A stretch of 64,000 nucleotides of DNA from positions 2,869,001 to 2,933,000 of the forward strand of contig NZ_JADBEC010000001.1 of NCBI RefSeq assembly GCF_014873945.1, written 5' to 3'. The translations under genes and the position numbers were made by a program. The stretch is from Rhizobium viscosum. Lineage in GTDB: Bacteria; Pseudomonadota; Alphaproteobacteria; Rhizobiales; Rhizobiaceae. Positions 1 to 10,030 of the stretch are shown piece by piece (position 1 is the first letter of the stretch; the number at the start of each line of letters is the position of its first letter). The notes beneath the pieces were generated by a model, which was given only the letters and a program-made list of their open reading frames with translations, did no database searches and had not been told where the DNA came from.

Positions 1-1
1 G

Positions 2-301
2 GAACTGGCTGGCGCTGATTGTCCGGATGCGATCTTCTGCACGTCAGATGCGATGGCCATGGGCATTCTCGATGTCTGCCGCGCCGATTTTCCCGGCAAC
101 CGGCCGACACGTTTCCGGCTCTATGGTTTCGACAATCTCTCGCTCACCGATTTCGACGCCTATCCGATTTCCTCGATCGGCTACGACAAGAGTGTCTATG
201 TCGAGCACATCGTGGATTTCATCGCAAATCCTGGCGATTTTCACCCCGGCCAGCCACCGGTCATCGTGCCGACAACCTATTTTCCGCGCCTGACCGCCTG
301 A
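2..301 (+). CDS. LacI-family transcriptional regulator, C-terminal part (5' end outside window)
   Basis: The reading frame is open from the first bases and ends at TGA 299-301. The visible 99 residues match the end of the periplasmic-binding-protein-like effector domain of LacI/GalR regulators: a CTSDAMAMG segment, then YGFDN, then a terminal region with VPTTYF. These correspond to the family's C(T/N)D-A-A-G and GFDD segments. The DNA-binding headpiece lies outside the window. It converges on the amino-acid ABC operon at 359-4183, whose promoter carries a LacI-type palindrome (4198-4211), so it is the natural candidate regulator of that operon. That link is inferred from position. Confidence 0.85.
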   Translation, partial: ELAGADCPDAIFCTSDAMAMGILDVCRADFPGNRPTRFRLYGFDNLSLTDFDAYPISSIGYDKSVYVEHIVDFIANPGDFHPGQPPVIVPTTYFPRLTA

Positions 302-324: not shown

Positions 325-348
325 ACAGGCCGCCCGAAGGCGGCCTGT
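325..348 (-). terminator. Hairpin terminator downstream of the amino-acid ABC operon
   Basis: A perfect 10-bp inverted repeat (ACAGGCCGCC / GGCGGCCTGT) closes on a CGAA loop between the stop of the LacI gene and the stop of the binding-protein gene. On the minus strand the stem is followed by TTTGC, a short U-run, so it fits best as the terminator of the minus-strand operon. It may also insulate the convergent plus-strand gene. Confidence 0.75.
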
Positions 349-358
349 GAGGATCATC

Positions 359-1150
359 CTACCACTGCGGGTTCAGAGCCGGCGGGTTGGCTTCTGCGCC
401 CCACCACTTCTTGTAATTGGCTTCATAAGCGCCCGACTGGATGTAGTCGGAAACGAACATGTCGAGCCAGCGGACGAATTCCGGATCGCCCTTGGCGACA
501 GCCATGCCGATCGGGTCGTTGGAATAGAGGCCGGCGAGCGTAACCAGCGTCGGGTTCTTGGTGGCGAGATAGTCGAGCAGCGAGGAATCTTCGATCGCAG
601 CATCGACGCGCTTCTGCTGGAGCTGCAGTACGCCATCGGGAGCGAACTGGTCGACATAGACGAGCTGCGCATCCGGAACGGCGGACTTGAGGAATGTCTC
701 GCCCGTCGTACCACGGCCGACGACGACCTTCTTGCCCGAGAGATCCTTCAGTTCCTTGATGCCGGCGTCCTTCTGGACGATGACGCGCAGGCCGGCGCGG
801 TTATAGGGGATCGAGAAGTCGACGACCTTGGCGCGCTCGAGCGTGGCAGAGGTATTGGCGATCGCCACGTCGATCTGGCCGGAAACCAGCATGGAGATGC
901 GCGCATCGCCCGAGACGTCGGTGAATTCGACCGGTACGCCGAGCTTTTCGGCCAGACGGTTGGCGACATCGACGTCGTAACCGACGGGGTTGTTCTGCGC
1001 GTCGCGGAAACCGATCGGCTCGCCGCCAAGCGATACGCCGATGCGCACGACGCCGCGTGAGCGGATGTCGTCGAGCATGCCGGCAAAGGACGGAAGCGCA
1101 GAGCCGGCAACGACGGCCAGCGCGGCAATGGCTGTGAGAATGCGTTTCAT
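359..1150 (-). CDS. Amino-acid ABC transporter, periplasmic substrate-binding protein
   Basis: A 263-residue SBP family 3 (HisJ/GlnH type) protein. The N-terminus is a classical Sec signal peptide (MKRILTAIAALAV... ending ALPSFA, cut near residue 23). It is followed by the usual start of the binding lobe (IRSRGVVRIGVSLGGEPIGF) and YDVDVANRLAEKLG. The length is typical for polar-amino-acid receptors. It is the last gene of a five-gene minus-strand operon, 22 bp after the glycosylasparaginase-like gene. The binding protein normally comes first, so the order is somewhat unusual. The ligand cannot be read from sequence; glycosylated asparagine is a hypothesis from context. Confidence 0.93.
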   Translation of the reverse strand: MKRILTAIAALAVVAGSALPSFAGMLDDIRSRGVVRIGVSLGGEPIGFRDAQNNPVGYDVDVANRLAEKLGVPVEFTDVSGDARISMLVSGQIDVAIANTSATLERAKVVDFSIPYNRAGLRVIVQKDAGIKELKDLSGKKVVVGRGTTGETFLKSAVPDAQLVYVDQFAPDGVLQLQQKRVDAAIEDSSLLDYLATKNPTLVTLAGLYSNDPIGMAVAKGDPEFVRWLDMFVSDYIQSGAYEANYKKWWGAEANPPALNPQW

Positions 1151-1172
1151 GGTTCCATTTCCCTCTTCTTGT

Positions 1173-2090
1173 TTATGCCTGTTTCGCGGCCCGAAGTTCC
1201 GGTTCGGGCATCGAGTCCTCCCAGAGCCAGTAGCGGATTTCGCCCTCGCATCTGAAATTCACGACCTCATGGTTGCCCTTGGCATCGACAGCATGGATGA
1301 CCACGCCGGCCAGGAAACCGGAGGACAGTTCATTGAGTTCCTCGACCGCCAGCTTGACGGCGTCGGAAAGCGAATAGCCGAATTTGAGCGCCAGGACGAC
1401 GGTGCGTGCGGTCGAGCAGCGCATGGTCATCTCACCGGTATGGGTGCAGGCCGCCGCGCCATAACGGCTGTCGGCATAGAAGCCGGCGCCGGGAATAGGG
1501 CTATCGCCGAGGCGGCCGGGATATTTCCAGGCCCAGCCGGACGTGGAGGTCGCGGCGTGGATGCCGCGTGTGGGGTCGGCGGACAGGAAGACGGTCGTGT
1601 CGCGTACACGCTCCGGGTCGGTGATGGTGCGGCTGAGCGGCGCCAACGGGATATCGGGAAATTTCGCCAGTTCCTCCGGTGACAGTTCCTTTTCCAGGCG
1701 CTCCCACCAGACGCGCTTGCTGTCTTCGAAGAGCACGTCATCTTCGGAGAAACCGATTTCACTGGCAAAGCGGCGAGCGCCATCGCCGGTCAGCATCACA
1801 TGCGGCAGGCGCTTCATGACTTCGTGGGCGAGGCGAGCGACCGGCAGCGTATTCGGCACGGCGCCGACAGTGCCGACATCGCGGGTGTTGCCATCCATGA
1901 CGGCGCCGTCGAGTTCCATATTGCCGAGCATGTTCGGCCAGCCGCCGTAACCGACGCTACGGACCCGGACTTCGCTTTCCACCTTGCTGATGCCGGCGAC
2001 CATGGCGTCGAGGCTGATGGCGCCTTCGCGCAGCATCTGCACCGTCGTCGGGAACCCGGGCCAGGCTTCTTTATTGGCCAAGAGCAGCAT
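1173..2090 (-). CDS. Glycosylasparaginase-like (N4-(beta-N-acetylglucosaminyl)-L-asparaginase) Ntn hydrolase
   Basis: A 305-residue member of the asparaginase-2/aspartylglucosaminidase family. These proteins self-cleave before a Thr that becomes the N-terminal nucleophile and hydrolyse the GlcNAc-Asn bond or isoaspartyl peptides. The cleavage site reads VRDTTVF with nucleophile Thr165. It is followed by STSGWAWKYPGRLGDSPIPGAG-type residues (about 181-203) that match the substrate-binding loop of human aspartylglucosaminidase closely. There is no signal peptide, so it should act in the cytoplasm, unlike lysosomal or periplasmic relatives. It lies 8 bp after the ATPase gene of an amino-acid importer, suggesting uptake and cleavage of a glycosylated or isoaspartyl amino acid. 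An AGAGG ribosome site precedes the ATG. Confidence 0.85.
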   Translation of the reverse strand: MLLLANKEAWPGFPTTVQMLREGAISLDAMVAGISKVESEVRVRSVGYGGWPNMLGNMELDGAVMDGNTRDVGTVGAVPNTLPVARLAHEVMKRLPHVMLTGDGARRFASEIGFSEDDVLFEDSKRVWWERLEKELSPEELAKFPDIPLAPLSRTITDPERVRDTTVFLSADPTRGIHAATSTSGWAWKYPGRLGDSPIPGAGFYADSRYGAAACTHTGEMTMRCSTARTVVLALKFGYSLSDAVKLAVEELNELSSGFLAGVVIHAVDAKGNHEVVNFRCEGEIRYWLWEDSMPEPELRAAKQA

Positions 2091-2098
2091 GAATACCT

Positions 2099-2833
2099 CT
2101 AATCCTTACGCATTTTGGACAGGAACTGGGCGATACGCGGGTTGGTCATGCCGCCCTCGGCGGCGAAGAAATCCGCAGTCGGCAGATCGACGAGCAGCTT
2201 GCCCTTGTCGAGGAAGACGATGCGGTTGGAAATCTGCCGCGCGAATTCGATCTCGTGGGTGACGAAGAGCATGGTTGTGCCTTCGGCTGCGAGCTTGGCG
2301 AGGATAGCCAGCACTTCGGCCGTCATTTCCGGGTCGAGCGCGCTGGTGACTTCATCAAGCAGCAGGTAACGCGGATGCATGGCAAGCGCCCGGCAAATGC
2401 CGACGCGCTGGCGCTGGCCGCCGGAAAGCTGGGCCGGATAGGCATCGGCGCGGTCTCCGAGGCCAACAGATTGCAGCAGCGCACGGGCGGTGGCTTCGGC
2501 TTCGGCACGCGGCTTTTTCAGCACTTCGACTGGAGCCAGCGTCACGTTTCCGAGCACGGTCATGTGCGGATAGAGATTGAAGAGCTGGAAAACGGTGGCC
2601 GAGCGCTTGCGAGCTTCGGCCAATTCCTTCGGCTTGCCGACGTCGAAATCATCGACGGTGATACTGCCGCCGTTCAGCTTCTCCAGGCCGTTGATGCAAC
2701 GGATCAGCGTCGATTTGCCGGAGCCGGAGGAGCCGAGGATGGAGACGACCTCGCCGGGATTGATGGTGAGGTTGACGCCATCGAGAACGGTTGTAGGACC
2801 AAAGGCCTTTTTGACGTTTTCTACTTTGAGCAT
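2099..2833 (-). CDS. Amino-acid ABC transporter ATP-binding protein (GlnQ/HisP type)
   Basis: A 244-residue single-domain ATPase. Visible motifs are Walker A GSSGSGKST (about residues 35-43), the Q-loop, the signature LSGGQRQRVGICRAL, Walker B LLLDEVTSALDPEM and the switch His in LFVTHEIEFAR. Note that Walker B reads DEVTS, not the more common DEPTS, as seen in a minority of polar-amino-acid ATPases. It energises the two permeases encoded immediately upstream (1-bp spacing to 2835-3506) and sits on the cytoplasmic face. Length and motif order are normal for the family. Confidence 0.95.
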   Translation of the reverse strand: MLKVENVKKAFGPTTVLDGVNLTINPGEVVSILGSSGSGKSTLIRCINGLEKLNGGSITVDDFDVGKPKELAEARKRSATVFQLFNLYPHMTVLGNVTLAPVEVLKKPRAEAEATARALLQSVGLGDRADAYPAQLSGGQRQRVGICRALAMHPRYLLLDEVTSALDPEMTAEVLAILAKLAAEGTTMLFVTHEIEFARQISNRIVFLDKGKLLVDLPTADFFAAEGGMTNPRIAQFLSKMRKD

Positions 2834-2834
2834 A

Positions 2835-3506
2835 TTAGAGCCCTCTCCAGGCGGAATGCGCCCTGAGGCGGTTTTCGAAGCGGGCGCCCAGCCATGCGAG
2901 CAGCTTGGCGCAGAGGTAATAGAGCAGCCCGACCGCCGTCCAGACGATGAAGGGTTTGAGCGTGCGCAGATTCAGGATGTTGCCTATCTTGGTGAGATCG
3001 ACGACGCCTATGACCGAGATCAGCGATGTGACCTGCAGCTGGTTGACGAGCAGCGCCGTCAGCGGGCCGATGGCGAAGGCCATTGCCTGCGGCGCCACGA
3101 CATGGCGCAGCACCTGCCAACGGGTGAGGCCGAAGACGCGAGCGGCTTCGATCTGGTCGCGGCCGATGGATTCGATTGCCGAGACCGCGATGACGTAGAC
3201 GAAGGCTGCGGAATTGGCCGAAAGCGTGATGGTGGCAGCCGTCGTCGGCGTGATCCGGATGTGCAAGAGGCCGGGCAGGCCGAAGAAGACGAGGAAGAGC
3301 TGCACCAGAACAGGCGAGTTCTTCAGGAGTTCTGCAATGAAGGTGATGACCTGCGTCAGCACCGGCACGCGATAGAAGCGGCAGATTGCCCAGAGTGTAC
3401 CGATCAGGAGACCGATGAGGGACGTCGAGAGAAACAGACCGAGGCTGACGCCGAGGCCCTGTAAAAGCAGCCAGATATCGAAGGGCGTGAAATCGGAAAA
3501 ACGCAT
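2835..3506 (-). CDS. Amino-acid ABC transporter permease (HisM/HisQ type)
   Basis: A 223-residue inner-membrane protein with about five hydrophobic helices. It contains the His/Glu/Gln permease signature, seen as NSPVLVQLFLVFFGLPGL near residues 65-82 and the EAA loop SIGRDQIEAARVFGLTRWQVLRH near 115-138, which contacts the ATPase. It follows the partner permease with a 1-bp stop/start overlap at 3506 and precedes the ATPase by one base. The two permeases probably form a heterodimeric channel. Confidence 0.94.
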   Translation of the reverse strand: MRFSDFTPFDIWLLLQGLGVSLGLFLSTSLIGLLIGTLWAICRFYRVPVLTQVITFIAELLKNSPVLVQLFLVFFGLPGLLHIRITPTTAATITLSANSAAFVYVIAVSAIESIGRDQIEAARVFGLTRWQVLRHVVAPQAMAFAIGPLTALLVNQLQVTSLISVIGVVDLTKIGNILNLRTLKPFIVWTAVGLLYYLCAKLLAWLGARFENRLRAHSAWRGL

Positions 3507-4183
3507 CAGGCTACAGCCTCCATCATGTCGCGGTTCAGGCGGCGGTGGAGGAGGGCGATGCCGAGCGAGACGAGATAGGTCAGCACTGCATAGACGACGA
3601 GCAGCACGACATAGACCTCGAAGGGCCTGTAGGTCTGCGAGACGACGATCTGCGCCGAGCCGGTCAGCTCGTTCAGCGTGATCGTCGAGAGGATCGACGA
3701 TGTCAGGATCATGTTGATCAGCACGGAGCCGAGCGGGCGAACGGAGGTTCTGAGCGCGATCGGCAGCACGATCTTGGTAAAAGTCACCCGGCGCGACAGG
3801 CCGCTCACTTCGGCGGCTTCGATGATGCCGGGATCGATCGCCAGAATGCCGGCGCGGATAACGTCGGAGGCATAGGCGCCGCCGGCAATCGAGAGTGCCA
3901 CGACTCCCGTCGTGAAGGCATCGATATAGATGCCGATCTCGGGCAGGCCGTAATAGAAGAAGAACAGCTGCACGATGAAGGGCACGTTGCGGAAGATATC
4001 GACGTAGACGAAGGAGATCCTGCGCAGAACAGTTGATGATGACGTGCGCGCAATGGCAACGAATGCACCCATGATGACGCTGCCGATCAGCGCTAGAGCA
4101 CAGGCCTCTGCCGTCAGCAGCGCGCCTTGCGCGAGAAAGCCCAGATGGGGCAAGAGGATCGAAAGGTCGAACCGCACGATCAC
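3506..4183 (-). CDS. Amino-acid ABC transporter permease, first gene of the operon
   Basis: A 225-residue polar-amino-acid permease with several transmembrane segments. The family segment FRNVPFIVQLFFFYYGLPE lies near residues 63-81 and an EAA-type loop (IIEAAEVSGLSRRVTFTKIVLP) near 125-147. It opens the five-gene operon permease - permease - ATPase - glycosylasparaginase - binding protein. The start ATG at 4183 is 15 bases downstream of a perfect LacI-type palindrome that overlaps the predicted transcription start, so initiation of the whole operon is probably repressed by a LacI protein. Confidence 0.93.
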   Translation of the reverse strand: MIVRFDLSILLPHLGFLAQGALLTAEACALALIGSVIMGAFVAIARTSSSTVLRRISFVYVDIFRNVPFIVQLFFFYYGLPEIGIYIDAFTTGVVALSIAGGAYASDVIRAGILAIDPGIIEAAEVSGLSRRVTFTKIVLPIALRTSVRPLGSVLINMILTSSILSTITLNELTGSAQIVVSQTYRPFEVYVVLLVVYAVLTYLVSLGIALLHRRLNRDMMEAVA

Positions 4184-4197
4184 TCCCTATGCGTGAT

Positions 4198-4211
4198 TGA
4201 AACCGGTTTCA
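4198..4211. promoter_or_regulatory. LacI-type operator in the amino-acid ABC operon promoter
   Basis: TGAAACCGGTTTCA is a perfect 14-bp palindrome with the central CG typical of LacI/GalR operators. It sits just downstream of the predicted -10 hexamer of the minus-strand operon, where a bound repressor would block polymerase. The truncated LacI gene at the left edge is the likely partner. The palindrome is seen directly; the regulator assignment is inference. Confidence 0.75.
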
Positions 4212-4239
4212 TCGTGTCGTTTGTGTGCTCTGATGTCAA
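4211..4239 (-). promoter_or_regulatory. Sigma70-type promoter for the amino-acid ABC operon
   Basis: On the minus strand a consensus -35 TTGACA (plus coordinates 4234-4239) is followed after exactly 17 bases by CACGAT (4211-4216) as a weak -10. The weak -10 and adjoining operator fit a regulated promoter. It drives the gene starting at 4183. Confidence 0.6.
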
Positions 4240-4406: not shown

Positions 4407-4937
4407 ATGAGCCAGCTTCCCCAGATCGATTACGAGACCGCTTCCGAAGAGATTCGCGCAGCGCATGACGAGGAAGTGCGGGTTCGCGGCAACATGACCA
4501 ACATGAAGCGAACGCTCCTGCATTCGCCTGAAGCCCACCGCATCTATGCCGAATGGTTTACGCTGAGAGCTGAGCTCAACCCCGCCATCAGTGATCGCGA
4601 GATCTGGATCTTCTCACATTCGATCTCGAAGGCACTGAAGTCCGATATCGCCGTCACCTTCTTTCGGCGGGCGCTGATCAAGAACGGGTTCAACCCGGAT
4701 GCTTTGGAACTCAGCGAGACCGAATCTCTGCTTAAACGTTTCGGCATTGCGATCGTCGCCGATTCCAAAGCCATTCCTGCCGATATCTGGGCCGAACTGA
4801 AGGCGTGCTACGACACCAAGGTGCTCGTCGATCTCGTGGCCTTCGCCGGCATCATGATTGCCACTGCCGTCTACATCAATGTTGTCGAGGTCGATTTCGA
4901 TCCCGAGCTTGAGGCCTTTGCTGAAAGCTCTAACTGA
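4407..4937 (+). CDS. Carboxymuconolactone-decarboxylase/AhpD-fold family protein
   Basis: A 176-residue soluble, mostly helical protein. The segment REIWIFSHSISKALKSDIAVTFFRRALI and the C-terminal helix VLVDLVAFAGIMIATAVYINVVEV resemble the AhpD-like/CMD fold. The CxxC redox pair of true alkylhydroperoxidases is absent, so peroxidase activity by that mechanism is unlikely. It is divergent from the amino-acid operon and lies 27 bp before a peptide-type ABC importer. CMD-fold proteins do recur beside such importers in related bacteria (family knowledge). Its actual reaction is unknown. Confidence 0.65.
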   Translation: MSQLPQIDYETASEEIRAAHDEEVRVRGNMTNMKRTLLHSPEAHRIYAEWFTLRAELNPAISDREIWIFSHSISKALKSDIAVTFFRRALIKNGFNPDALELSETESLLKRFGIAIVADSKAIPADIWAELKACYDTKVLVDLVAFAGIMIATAVYINVVEVDFDPELEAFAESSN

Positions 4938-7634: not shown

Positions 7635-8488
7635 GCGCGATCGTCCAGGCGCCATCAGGCGGTCCGTCCTTTCTGCGGCGTGTGCTGCGCTCGCCTTCGG
7701 CGGCGGCAGGCAGCGCGGTTGTGCTCGTCATCCTGGCGCTTACGCTGCTCGCGCCTTTGATTGCGCCCTATGATCCGAACCTGCAGGAGACGGCCAATCG
7801 CCTGATGCCGCCTGATGCCGCGCACTGGTTCGGCACTGACGGGTTCGGCCGGGATATCCTGTCGCGCATCATCTATGGTGCGCGGCCGACGCTGCTTCTG
7901 GTGCTTGTCGTCGTGCTCTTGATGGCGCCGCTCGGCATTCTTGTCGGCATCGTCTCGGGCTTTTTCGGTGGCATCACCGAGCGTGTGCTGATGCGGATCA
8001 CCGATATCGTCATGTCCTTTCCGCGGCTGCTGCTGGCCTTCGCCTTCGTTGCCATCATGGGGCCGGGATTGATCAACGGTGCGCTGGCGCTGGCGCTGAC
8101 AAGCTGGCCTGCCTATGCGCGTCAGGCGCGCGTCGAGACGGCAGCGCTCAGGCGCAGCGATTATCTGGCGGCCGCCGAAATGGTTGGTATTCGCGGGGTA
8201 CGATTGCTCTGGGGGCATATTTTGCCGCTGGTTCTGCCTTCGGCGATCATCCGCCTGGCGCTTGATCTCTCGGGCATCATTCTTGCCGCGGCCGGCCTCG
8301 GCTTCCTCGGTCTCGGTGTTCGTCCGCCGACGGCGGAATGGGGTTCGATGGTCTCGGAGGGCACGCAGGTGATCTTCGATCAATGGTGGGTGGCGGCCGT
8401 GCCGGGCTTTGCCATCCTGATCACCTCCTTCGCCTTCAACCTGCTGGCCGATGGTCTGCGCGATATTCTGGATCCGCGCCATGACTGA
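7631..8488 (+). CDS. Peptide-type ABC transporter permease (DppC type)
   Basis: A 285-residue permease starting in an ATGA overlap with the DppB-type gene. It shows the DppC N-terminal pattern: one helix (AGSAVVLVILALTLLAPLIAPY), then a periplasmic segment with HWFGTDGFGRDILSRIIYGAR (about 59-79). The core helices and EAA loop (RRSDYLAAAEMVGIRGVRLLWGHILP) follow. It ends RDILDPRHD, the conserved C-terminal tag of the family. It forms the channel together with the preceding gene product. Confidence 0.94.
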   Translation: MSAIVQAPSGGPSFLRRVLRSPSAAAGSAVVLVILALTLLAPLIAPYDPNLQETANRLMPPDAAHWFGTDGFGRDILSRIIYGARPTLLLVLVVVLLMAPLGILVGIVSGFFGGITERVLMRITDIVMSFPRLLLAFAFVAIMGPGLINGALALALTSWPAYARQARVETAALRRSDYLAAAEMVGIRGVRLLWGHILPLVLPSAIIRLALDLSGIILAAAGLGFLGLGVRPPTAEWGSMVSEGTQVIFDQWWVAAVPGFAILITSFAFNLLADGLRDILDPRHD

Positions 8489-9305
8489 GCCGCTGCTTTC
8501 CGCCGAGGATCTGTCGATCGCCTTTCCATCGGAGGCGGGGCCGGTGCGCGTCGTCGATGGTATGTCTTTCTCGGTCGGCCGCGAGGTTCTTGCATTGGTC
8601 GGCGAATCCGGCTCCGGCAAGTCGATGACCGGTCGGGCGATCATGGGGCTGCTACCGCGTCGGGCGGAGGTGCGAGCAAAGCGTCTTGCCTTCGATGGCC
8701 AGGAACTGACGACGCTGTCCGCATCCGGCTGGAACAGGCTGCGCGGCAGTGGCCTGGGACTGATCCTGCAGGATCCGAAATATTCGCTAAACCCTGCCCA
8801 TAAGGTTGGCCGACAGGTGGAAGAAGCATTGCTTTTACACACCAAGCTTTCTGCTGCCGAACGGCGCGAGCAGGCGCTCGATATGCTGGAGAAGGTCGGC
8901 CTGCCCGATCCGCAGCGCGTCTATTCGAGTTATCCTGCTGCCCTCTCGGGCGGCATGGGCCAACGCGTGATGATCGCGGCCATGCTGATCAACCGACCGA
9001 AGCTGCTGATCGCAGACGAGCCGACTTCGGCGCTGGATCGCGGATTGCGGGACCAGATCCTGACGTTGCTGCGATCGCTTACGGAAGAACTCGGCATGGG
9101 GCTGCTTCTCATCAGCCACGATCTGCAGCAGGTCTCGCGTTATGCCAACCGCGTCATGGTCATGCGCCAAGGCAAGATCGAAGAGCAGATGGCGTCGGCC
9201 GATCTTGCCAATGCCAGATCGGATTACACGCGGGCGCTCTGGGCAGCACGGCCTTCGGCGGCGACTTATGGGACACGGTTGCCGGTTTATGGAGGCGAGG
9301 CATGA
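8481..9305 (+). CDS. Peptide-type ABC transporter ATP-binding protein (DppD type)
   Basis: A 274-residue ATPase. The start ATG at 8481 overlaps the end of the permease gene by 8 bases and gives the expected N-terminus MTEPLLSAEDLSIAF. Walker A is GESGSGKSM (the usual last T is M), the signature LSGGMGQRVMIAAML, and Walker B LLIADEPTSALD, then SHD with the switch His. An upstream in-frame ATG at 8451 would extend into the permease gene and is not favoured. It pairs with the next ATPase gene (overlap at 9302). Confidence 0.93.
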   Translation: MTEPLLSAEDLSIAFPSEAGPVRVVDGMSFSVGREVLALVGESGSGKSMTGRAIMGLLPRRAEVRAKRLAFDGQELTTLSASGWNRLRGSGLGLILQDPKYSLNPAHKVGRQVEEALLLHTKLSAAERREQALDMLEKVGLPDPQRVYSSYPAALSGGMGQRVMIAAMLINRPKLLIADEPTSALDRGLRDQILTLLRSLTEELGMGLLLISHDLQQVSRYANRVMVMRQGKIEEQMASADLANARSDYTRALWAARPSAATYGTRLPVYGGEA

Positions 9306-10030
9306 GTGCGCTCTCCGTTTCGGATCTTTCCGTGACCTTCCAGGGCAGCGGCAAGGGTTTTACCGCCGTGCGCGGTGTCAGCTTCAAGGTCGCGGCGGGC
9401 GAGACATTCGGACTGATCGGCCCTTCCGGCTGCGGCAAGACGACGGTGCTGCGTGCCGTTGCCGGGCTCAACACCCATTGGCAAGGCTCCATCACCGTCT
9501 TCGACGAGGCGCTGCAGCCGGGGCATAAAATCACCGGCGCGTTGCGATCCAATATCCAGATGGTGTTCCAGGATCCCTATTCCTCGCTGCATCCGCGCCA
9601 CCGCATCTCCCGCATTCTCGGTGAGCCGTTGGCGTTGCGGGGCATGCGCAATGTCGAGGACGAGGTGAGTATTGCGCTCGATCAGGTCGGCTTGCCGGCT
9701 ACTGCGGCCGTGCGTTATCCGCACCAGCTTTCCGGCGGGCAGCGGCAACGCGTGGCGATTGCCCGTGCGCTGCTTCTGAAGCCAAAGCTGCTGCTACTCG
9801 ACGAGCCCACTTCGGCGCTCGATGTCTCGGTGCAGGCCGAAATCCTGAACCTGCTGAACGACCTCAAGGCCTCGCATGGGATGACCTTCGTGCTTGTCAG
9901 CCACGATCCTGGCGTCGTCGCGCATATGTGCGACCGGGCTGTGCTGATGCGGGCCGGTCGCGTCGAAACCGAACTCGACCGCGCCGCGCTTTCGCAAGGC
10001 GGCTGGGTCGAGCAGCTTGCCGTTCGCTAG
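9302..10030 (+). CDS. Peptide-type ABC transporter ATP-binding protein (DppF type)
   Basis: A 242-residue ATPase beginning in an ATGA overlap with the DppD-type gene. Walker A is GPSGCGKTT, the Q-loop MVFQDPYSSLHPRHR is typical of the Dpp/Opp branch, the signature is LSGGQRQRVAIARAL and Walker B LLLLDEPTSALDVS. It is shorter than many DppF proteins because the C-terminal Cys/peptide extension is missing. Its TAG at 10028-10030 directly abuts the TGA of the convergent GH42 gene, leaving no intergenic base. Confidence 0.94.
   Translation: MSALSVSDLSVTFQGSGKGFTAVRGVSFKVAAGETFGLIGPSGCGKTTVLRAVAGLNTHWQGSITVFDEALQPGHKITGALRSNIQMVFQDPYSSLHPRHRISRILGEPLALRGMRNVEDEVSIALDQVGLPATAAVRYPHQLSGGQRQRVAIARALLLKPKLLLLDEPTSALDVSVQAEILNLLNDLKASHGMTFVLVSHDPGVVAHMCDRAVLMRAGRVETELDRAALSQGGWVEQLAVR

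Follow-up and report, generated by a model that had tools for sequence, protein, structure and literature searches.

A LacI-linked operon of Rhizobium viscosum joining a PAAT-type ABC importer to a glycosylasparaginase-type hydrolase, probably for the scavenging of GlcNAc-asparagine

What does an ABC importer of the "polar amino acid" class (PAAT) take up when its operon also encodes a glycosylasparaginase-type hydrolase and is preceded by a LacI-type operator? The question is raised by five genes at positions 359-4183 of a stretch of 64,000 nucleotides of Rhizobium viscosum DNA (the window). A reading made earlier from the letters alone (the sequence-only reading) had proposed that the system scavenges N4-(beta-N-acetylglucosaminyl)-L-asparagine (GlcNAc-Asn; GlcNAc, N-acetylglucosamine) by import and cytoplasmic cleavage to aspartate and GlcNAc-amine. 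This is the best-supported explanation, in view of the placement of the hydrolase among the glycosylasparaginases (AGAs), the predicted lack of a signal peptide and the linkage to genes encoding a kinase, CutC and a GH20 enzyme. We assign a probability of about 0.74 to a LacI-controlled operon for GlcNAc-Asn import and cytoplasmic cleavage.

We infer the substrate, the inducer, the autoproteolysis, the looping and the fate of the glycosylamine, and the route would run as follows. GlcNAc-Asn would be the stub that is left by trimming and proteolysis of N-glycoproteins. In the manner of family-3 receptors, the receptor would grip its alpha-amino/alpha-carboxyl end, and the PAAT importer would take the glyco-amino acid into the cell, where the self-cleaved (D164/T165) hydrolase would split the amide to yield aspartate and 1-amino-GlcNAc. 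The latter would lose ammonia to become GlcNAc, which a NagK-like ROK kinase and NagA would pass into amino-sugar catabolism. The convergently encoded LacI protein would repress at an operator, O1, that touches the -10 hexamer, and a second site, O2, inside the hydrolase gene may aid repression through looping. If this is true, plant- and soil-associated proteobacteria can draw carbon and nitrogen from decaying glycoproteins by a regulated pathway specific to that purpose, and annotations of the "polar amino acid" transporter class would be corrected.

The operon and its conservation

The operon genes all lie on the minus strand, and neighbours overlap by 1 bp or sit 1-22 bp apart. Together with the regulator gene they are:

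359-1150, minus strand: SBP_bac_3 periplasmic binding protein (the receptor), last gene of the operon, 263 residues; PF00497, 119.9 bits
1173-2090, minus strand: glycosylasparaginase-type N-terminal nucleophile (Ntn) hydrolase, 305 residues, predicted nucleophile T165, no signal peptide predicted; PF01112, 180.3 bits (cut-off 27)
2099-2833, minus strand: ATPase of the PAAT importer; PF00005, 121.3 bits
2835-3506, minus strand: PAAT permease 1; PF00528, and TIGR01726 with 70.5 bits (cut-off 42.2)
3506-4183, minus strand: PAAT permease 2 (PERM2), first gene of the operon; PF00528, and TIGR01726 with 99.9 bits (cut-off 42.2)
1-301, plus strand: 3' end of the LacI-family regulator gene, which in full runs from -700 to 301 of the window

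All parts of the importer score over the cut-offs of their models (the PF00497 receptor, two TIGR01726 HEQRo-type permeases and the PF00005 ATPase). The true start of PERM2 is likely the GTG at 4177, which is preceded by GGGAG. The regulator gene, convergent with the operon, matches PF00356 with 51 bits (cut-off 27). The arrangement of importer, hydrolase and LacI-type operator described in the sequence-only reading is thus borne out by gene calls, profile matches and the conservation of the operator.

Relatives were collected by a hydrolase-based scan with one genome per species; 80 loci, from alpha- and beta-proteobacteria, were kept of 379 encoding relatives, and are cited below by L numbers where needed. 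All five operon genes are present in 78/80 loci and the LacI gene, as detected with tblastn, in 75/80. The order of the window, with LacI convergent, is found in 71/80 loci, and in a further 3/80 LacI lies on the other strand. Four loci have no LacI gene, one has LacI and the hydrolase only, and one the hydrolase only. The claim that importers rarely carry such a hydrolase agrees with the few loci compared: among 19 other loci with a PF01112 gene (L097-L116 without L111; chosen, not random) none encodes relatives of the importer (0/19; tblastn, 1e-8).

The hydrolase, the receptor and the substrate

By profile, fold and tree the hydrolase groups with the AGAs and not with the isoaspartyl peptidases. 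The profile of its clade (A1) scores 146 bits to the Flavobacterium glycosylasparaginase versus 104 bits to the best isoaspartyl type. The AlphaFold model of the protein (predicted local distance difference test, pLDDT, 77.8; predicted template-modelling score, pTM, 0.82) matches seven full-length AGA precursors with Z 28.4-29.5 over 251-267 residues at a root-mean-square deviation of 2.1-2.5 Å, the best being 1p4k (Z 29.5), and other families reach at most 25.8. Separate mature AGA chains, which are half as long, give Z 14-15. In a tree of 36 rows the clade joins the AGAs with a branch support of 100/97.

The sister of the clade in this tree is formed by two AGAs linked to the phosphotransferase system (PTS), those of L104 and L105. 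Its support is 88/68, and the placement is unsure, the program itself warning that the join may be false. In these two loci the AGA genes lie between PTS EIIC genes (L104 3401-7098, L105 3753-7816); L104 also holds an M17 aminopeptidase gene, and L105 a PTS IIB gene of the lactose/cellobiose type. Possibly these loci represent another import route for glycosyl-asparagine.

The residues D164-T165, T183, R193, D196 and T216 are invariant in all 31 A1 rows and align with the Flavobacterium enzyme. From the AGA literature we take them to include the Asp-Thr autoproteolysis site, the catalytic Thr residues, and the Arg and Asp that hold the asparagine end. The hydrolase is predicted to cleave itself at D164/T165, with T165 as the nucleophile. 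The first residue of the model falls opposite residue 5 in the chain of the Flavobacterium enzyme, which leaves no room for a signal peptide; N-terminal extensions are present on most of the classical AGA relatives compared.

The gene neighbourhood also counts in favour of GlcNAc-Asn. Genes for a ROK kinase and CutC are both found near the operon in 42/80 loci; one further locus has ROK alone, at a contig end, and one has CutC alone. These neighbour counts are from tblastn, and those from clusters of open reading frames (ORFs) are lower (ROK 40/80, CutC 29/80) through missed genes. The best NCBIfam model for the linked ROK protein is N-acetylglucosamine kinase with 201 bits (model cut-off 380), followed by fructokinase with 164, and its second PDB match, with 163 bits, is a named NagK. 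In L086 the hydrolase gene lies directly 3' of a GH20 hexosaminidase gene (310 bits), with a PF01547 sugar-type binding protein encoded nearby. In the R. viscosum genome the gene of the closest ROK homologue (62% identical) and a GH20 gene (373.6 bits) point towards each other at a site away from the operon, and NagA is present with 300.8 bits, over its cut-off.

Several observations weigh against GlcNAc-Asn as the substrate. The pLDDT of the hydrolase model falls below 50 at residues 155-163 and 186-202, which cover part of the active site, and the clade sits on a long branch (2.82 changes per column). H217 is found in 31/31 A1 rows, versus Gly in that column in 21/21 rows outside the clade, so that the Thr-Gly (Ser-Gly) oxyanion-hole pair of classical AGAs is represented here by Thr216-His217; the N-terminal TW motif (S/T/A-T-W) of those enzymes is replaced by ANxEAWPGF variants in 15/15 clade rows. 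Given the long branch, H217 and the missing TW motif, the substrate of the hydrolase could differ. The fold matches of the receptor are generic amino-acid binders, the best being a glutamate receptor (Z 26.4), with the sugar-amino-acid receptor SocA at 22.5. On the genomic side, neither ROK nor CutC is encoded nearby in 36/80 loci, the kinase and CutC genes are not part of the operon in the window, and no operator with at most three mismatches was found around the ROK and CutC homologues of the R. viscosum genome (stretches of 9 and 11 kb). Finally, the 80 loci were picked through the hydrolase and share common ancestry, so that the counts are not independent events.

The receptor itself reaches the cut-off of none of the 17 NCBIfam models listed, and no amino-acid specificity was assigned to it. 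Its residues E44, R106, N117, T149 and D188 are invariant in 29/29 aligned rows.

Two other substrates have to be weighed against this evidence. The operon may, although this is unlikely, serve to take up and cleave beta-aspartyl (isoaspartyl) dipeptides, for instance from damaged proteins or cyanophycin. The hydrolase belongs to the same Pfam family, the receptor fold is of the amino-acid type, and in E. coli iaaA adjoins the gsiABCD importer. According to PMC10206079, clusters for cyanophycin scavenging combine genes for amino-acid transporters and isoaspartyl dipeptidases, and a low beta-aspartyl dipeptidase activity can be shown by AGAs; the latter point also counts against the GlcNAc-Asn reading. 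However, the hydrolase reaches only 107.5 bits with the isoaspartyl peptidase equivalog (IaaA, NF007589), whose cut-off is 567, and falls on the opposite side of the 100/97 branch, and a NagK-like kinase and GH20 neighbours have no place in the use of dipeptides.

Slightly less probable still is another N4-substituted asparagine or sugar-asparagine conjugate (another glycosyl-asparagine, or an Amadori product, for example fructosyl-asparagine), for which the H217 clade would have shifted its specificity. Such a shift would agree with the invariance throughout the clade (31/31) of W51, W186 and W188 next to H217, residues that differ from those in most or all of the rows outside, and SocA, a receptor of the same family, binds deoxyfructosyl-amino acids. 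Against it, the linked kinase is most like a GlcNAc kinase, GH20 enzymes act on GlcNAc-type linkages, and no Amadori deglycase was found among those scanned neighbours that could be identified by family.

The LacI regulator and its operators

The elements that bear on the control of the operon are:

4198-4211, no strand: operator O1, the perfect 14-bp palindrome TGAAACCGGTTTCA, of which the 7.07-Mb genome holds no second exact copy
4211-4239, minus strand: putative promoter, read from the sequence, with TTGACA at 4234-4239, a 17-bp spacer and CACGAT at 4211-4216
1748-1761, no strand: candidate operator O2, within the hydrolase gene and 2.45 kb away from O1, with two mismatches in the window
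325-348, no strand: strong hairpin, from folding, between the convergent receptor and LacI genes, without a T-run

The hexamer CACGAT and O1 share one base; a scan for consensus promoters reported none at 4211-4239. Upstream of PERM2, O1 is exact in 64 of the 78 importer loci and has at most one mismatch in 74, or in 74 of the 77 for which the upstream region is available. Among the four misses, the contig end in L058 leaves only three upstream bases, and in L068, L082 and L083 the site is degenerate (2, 3 and 6 mismatches, respectively); these last three are untruncated importer loci without a LacI match in the stretch. L029 keeps O1, and its contig stops before the LacI position. In L069, where the importer is absent, the operator lies 38 bp before the hydrolase gene, with LacI just upstream and the ROK-CutC pair divergent. 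As a control, 34 of 1560 random segments from the same loci came within one mismatch, and such segments could overlap the real site. When 75 sites are aligned the flanking columns mostly vary and the 14-bp core is near-fixed, which follows from the selection of sites with at most one mismatch.

A gene for a LacI-type helix-turn-helix protein is thus linked to a palindrome of the TGAAACCGGTTTCA type at the promoter, and the two are kept together and lost together. By this co-conservation and co-loss regulator and O1 are coupled, and binding of the one to the other is predicted. The LacI gene has one operator-like site with three mismatches 105 bp before its own start, a candidate for autoregulation. 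LacI-family regulators also respond to purines and nucleosides. The LacI-type operator that had been placed at the promoter is borne out, but as the sole argument for a substrate with a sugar part it is weak, since regulators of the family have non-sugar effectors.

The same coupling bears on the notion of a plain importer of asparagine or polar amino acids, with an asparaginase as side activity and LacI as an unrelated neighbour, which is very improbable: the nearest NCBIfam models of the importer are free amino-acid systems and PF01112 is named Asparaginase, but the regulator gene and the operator are either both retained or both missing, the operator precedes the hydrolase even without the importer, and sugar-pathway genes are linked.

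The candidate O2 corresponds to codons 110-115 of the hydrolase gene. It is present with at most two mismatches in 29/80 loci plus the window, and with one in Jeongeupia and the majority of the Devosia loci. Its carriers are found in Rhizobium, Devosia, Labrys, one metagenome-assembled genome of the Rhizobiales and the beta-proteobacterium Jeongeupia; at the same threshold it is missing from 51/80 loci, including all of Phyllobacterium, Aminobacter, Massilia and Duganella. The site is made of rare synonymous codons: Gly is encoded by GGT in 37 of 61 alignable sequences (a count that omits 20 of 81 sequences without a match to the search motif) versus 218 of the 1689 Gly codons outside the site. 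Redrawing synonymous codons gave P values of 0.00075-0.023 in eight sequences (0.023 for the window), which are conditional because these sequences were selected as O2 carriers. The O2 site of the lac operon has a role in looping, and by analogy it is plausible that the present O2 is a looping operator as well.

The hairpin at 325-348 is probably a two-way terminator. The fold energies of the two strands of 301-360 are -27.5 and -29.3 kcal/mol; a terminator scan reported nothing at the hairpin. On the other side of the operon, across the operator region, a divergent gene at 4407-4937 encodes a protein of 176 residues that is found in 12/80 loci and has no Pfam or NCBIfam match. The CMD and dipeptide-ABC genes upstream (from 4407) were rejected as members of the system, being kept in just 12/80 and 8/80 loci, respectively. 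Directly 3' of the importer-less hydrolase gene of L069 lie three genes (8078-9887) without a Pfam match.

Known systems and CutC

Bacterial use of GlcNAc-Asn is known, and what looks new here is the PAAT importer, the LacI operator and the His-217 clade of hydrolases. Enterococcus faecalis, which belongs to another phylum, reportedly uses GlcNAc-L-Asn by means of enzymes for catabolism and transport that a single locus encodes (thus the title of a 2024 paper by Combret). Closest in its chemistry is the alf-2 cluster of Lactobacillus casei (AsnA2, SugK, AlfR2, AlfHC), for which the excerpts used of PMC6960285 describe a cytoplasmic glycosylasparaginase and a ROK kinase with a dedicated regulator: AsnA2 and SugK use GlcNAc-Asn that is formed intracellularly, and cleavage yields aspartate and 1-amino-GlcNAc, as we suppose for R. 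viscosum. A ROK gene lies near the operon in 43/80 relatives, whereas in R. viscosum the nearest homologue sits elsewhere. The L. casei cluster differs in its MFS permease, which requires fucose on the substrate, its GntR-family regulator, a fucosidase and an aspartate decarboxylase; as listed in those excerpts it has no ABC importer, and the main text never mentions "CutC" (PMC6960285).

In Xanthomonas the asparaginase gene XAC3092 directly follows cutC (XAC3091) in the numbering of locus tags, in or near the nix N-glycan degradation region, in which cutC is annotated as "resistance to copper"; the nix system differs in that its glycosidases are secreted or periplasmic and its uptake is TonB-dependent, and the portions of these reports considered here mention neither a PAAT importer nor a LacI operator (PMC6718126, PMC5700972; the annotation is from the former). 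The SocA receptor of Agrobacterium (5l9o, 6hqh; Z 22.5 and 22.3) shows that the same receptor fold can carry a sugar-amino acid conjugate; its substrates are others, and the match is generic for the fold. In the open-licence literature searched, as far as its text was accessible, no description was found of a PAAT/LacI operon of this kind or of a role of CutC in glycosylamine handling.

The recurrent presence of CutC was followed in a sample of 299 genomes of the phylum, of which 63 have PF01112, 42 have PF03932 and 23 have both. CutC lies within about 2 kb of an AGA gene in 6 of these 23 genomes (in five within 320 bp), versus 0.04 expected within 3 kb under independence; three of the six come from one family, so that four families are represented. 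The AGA partners in all six are classical AGAs, which means that the link with CutC recurs in a second AGA clade. Seven further AGA-type loci (L103-L105, L107-L109, L112) have no CutC within stretches of 10-11 kb. CutC genes are located at L067 10889-11611, in L097-L102 and, as the single copy of R. viscosum, at L096 5114-5866; those of L097 and L101 were overlooked by the ORF caller and are shown by tblastn. The locus L102 (1-10018) is an N-glycan cluster, with genes for an AGA, CutC, GH85 (259.8 bits), GH92, a GH2-mannosidase, a sodium symporter and a BadF-type ATPase/kinase. The action of GH85 endoglycosidases leaves GlcNAc on Asn.

The label "copper homeostasis" of CutC looks wrong. In an alignment of 21 CutC proteins, including the truncated row of L023, E5, R24, E26, H121, R122 and D125 (E. 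coli numbering) are invariant and not a single Cys is. A human CutC also exists (PDB 3iwp). In the part of PMC6538781 that bears on this point, the copper sensitivity of E. coli cutC mutants is traced to the small RNA MicL. The pairing with ROK, the proximity to AGA genes, the absence of an invariant Cys and the reassignment to MicL lead us to a tentative and still rather doubtful proposal, namely that CutC is an enzyme of the glycosylasparaginase pathway, acting on the 1-amino-GlcNAc that AGA releases or on the 6-phosphate into which ROK would convert it. According to the section of PMC6960285 concerned, 1-amino-GlcNAc cannot be metabolised and breaks down under acid conditions. In a cytoplasm of neutral pH the compound might persist, which would give a reason for an enzyme that handles it, perhaps CutC. 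Through the linkage the function of the CutC protein can be tested directly, with a single substrate and a single product.

Finally, a protein of 454 residues (L014 9931-11295 and 13 further loci, 14/80 in all) resembles M24 peptidases by eye and has no Pfam or NCBIfam match; 13 of its 14 loci are without the ROK-CutC pair.

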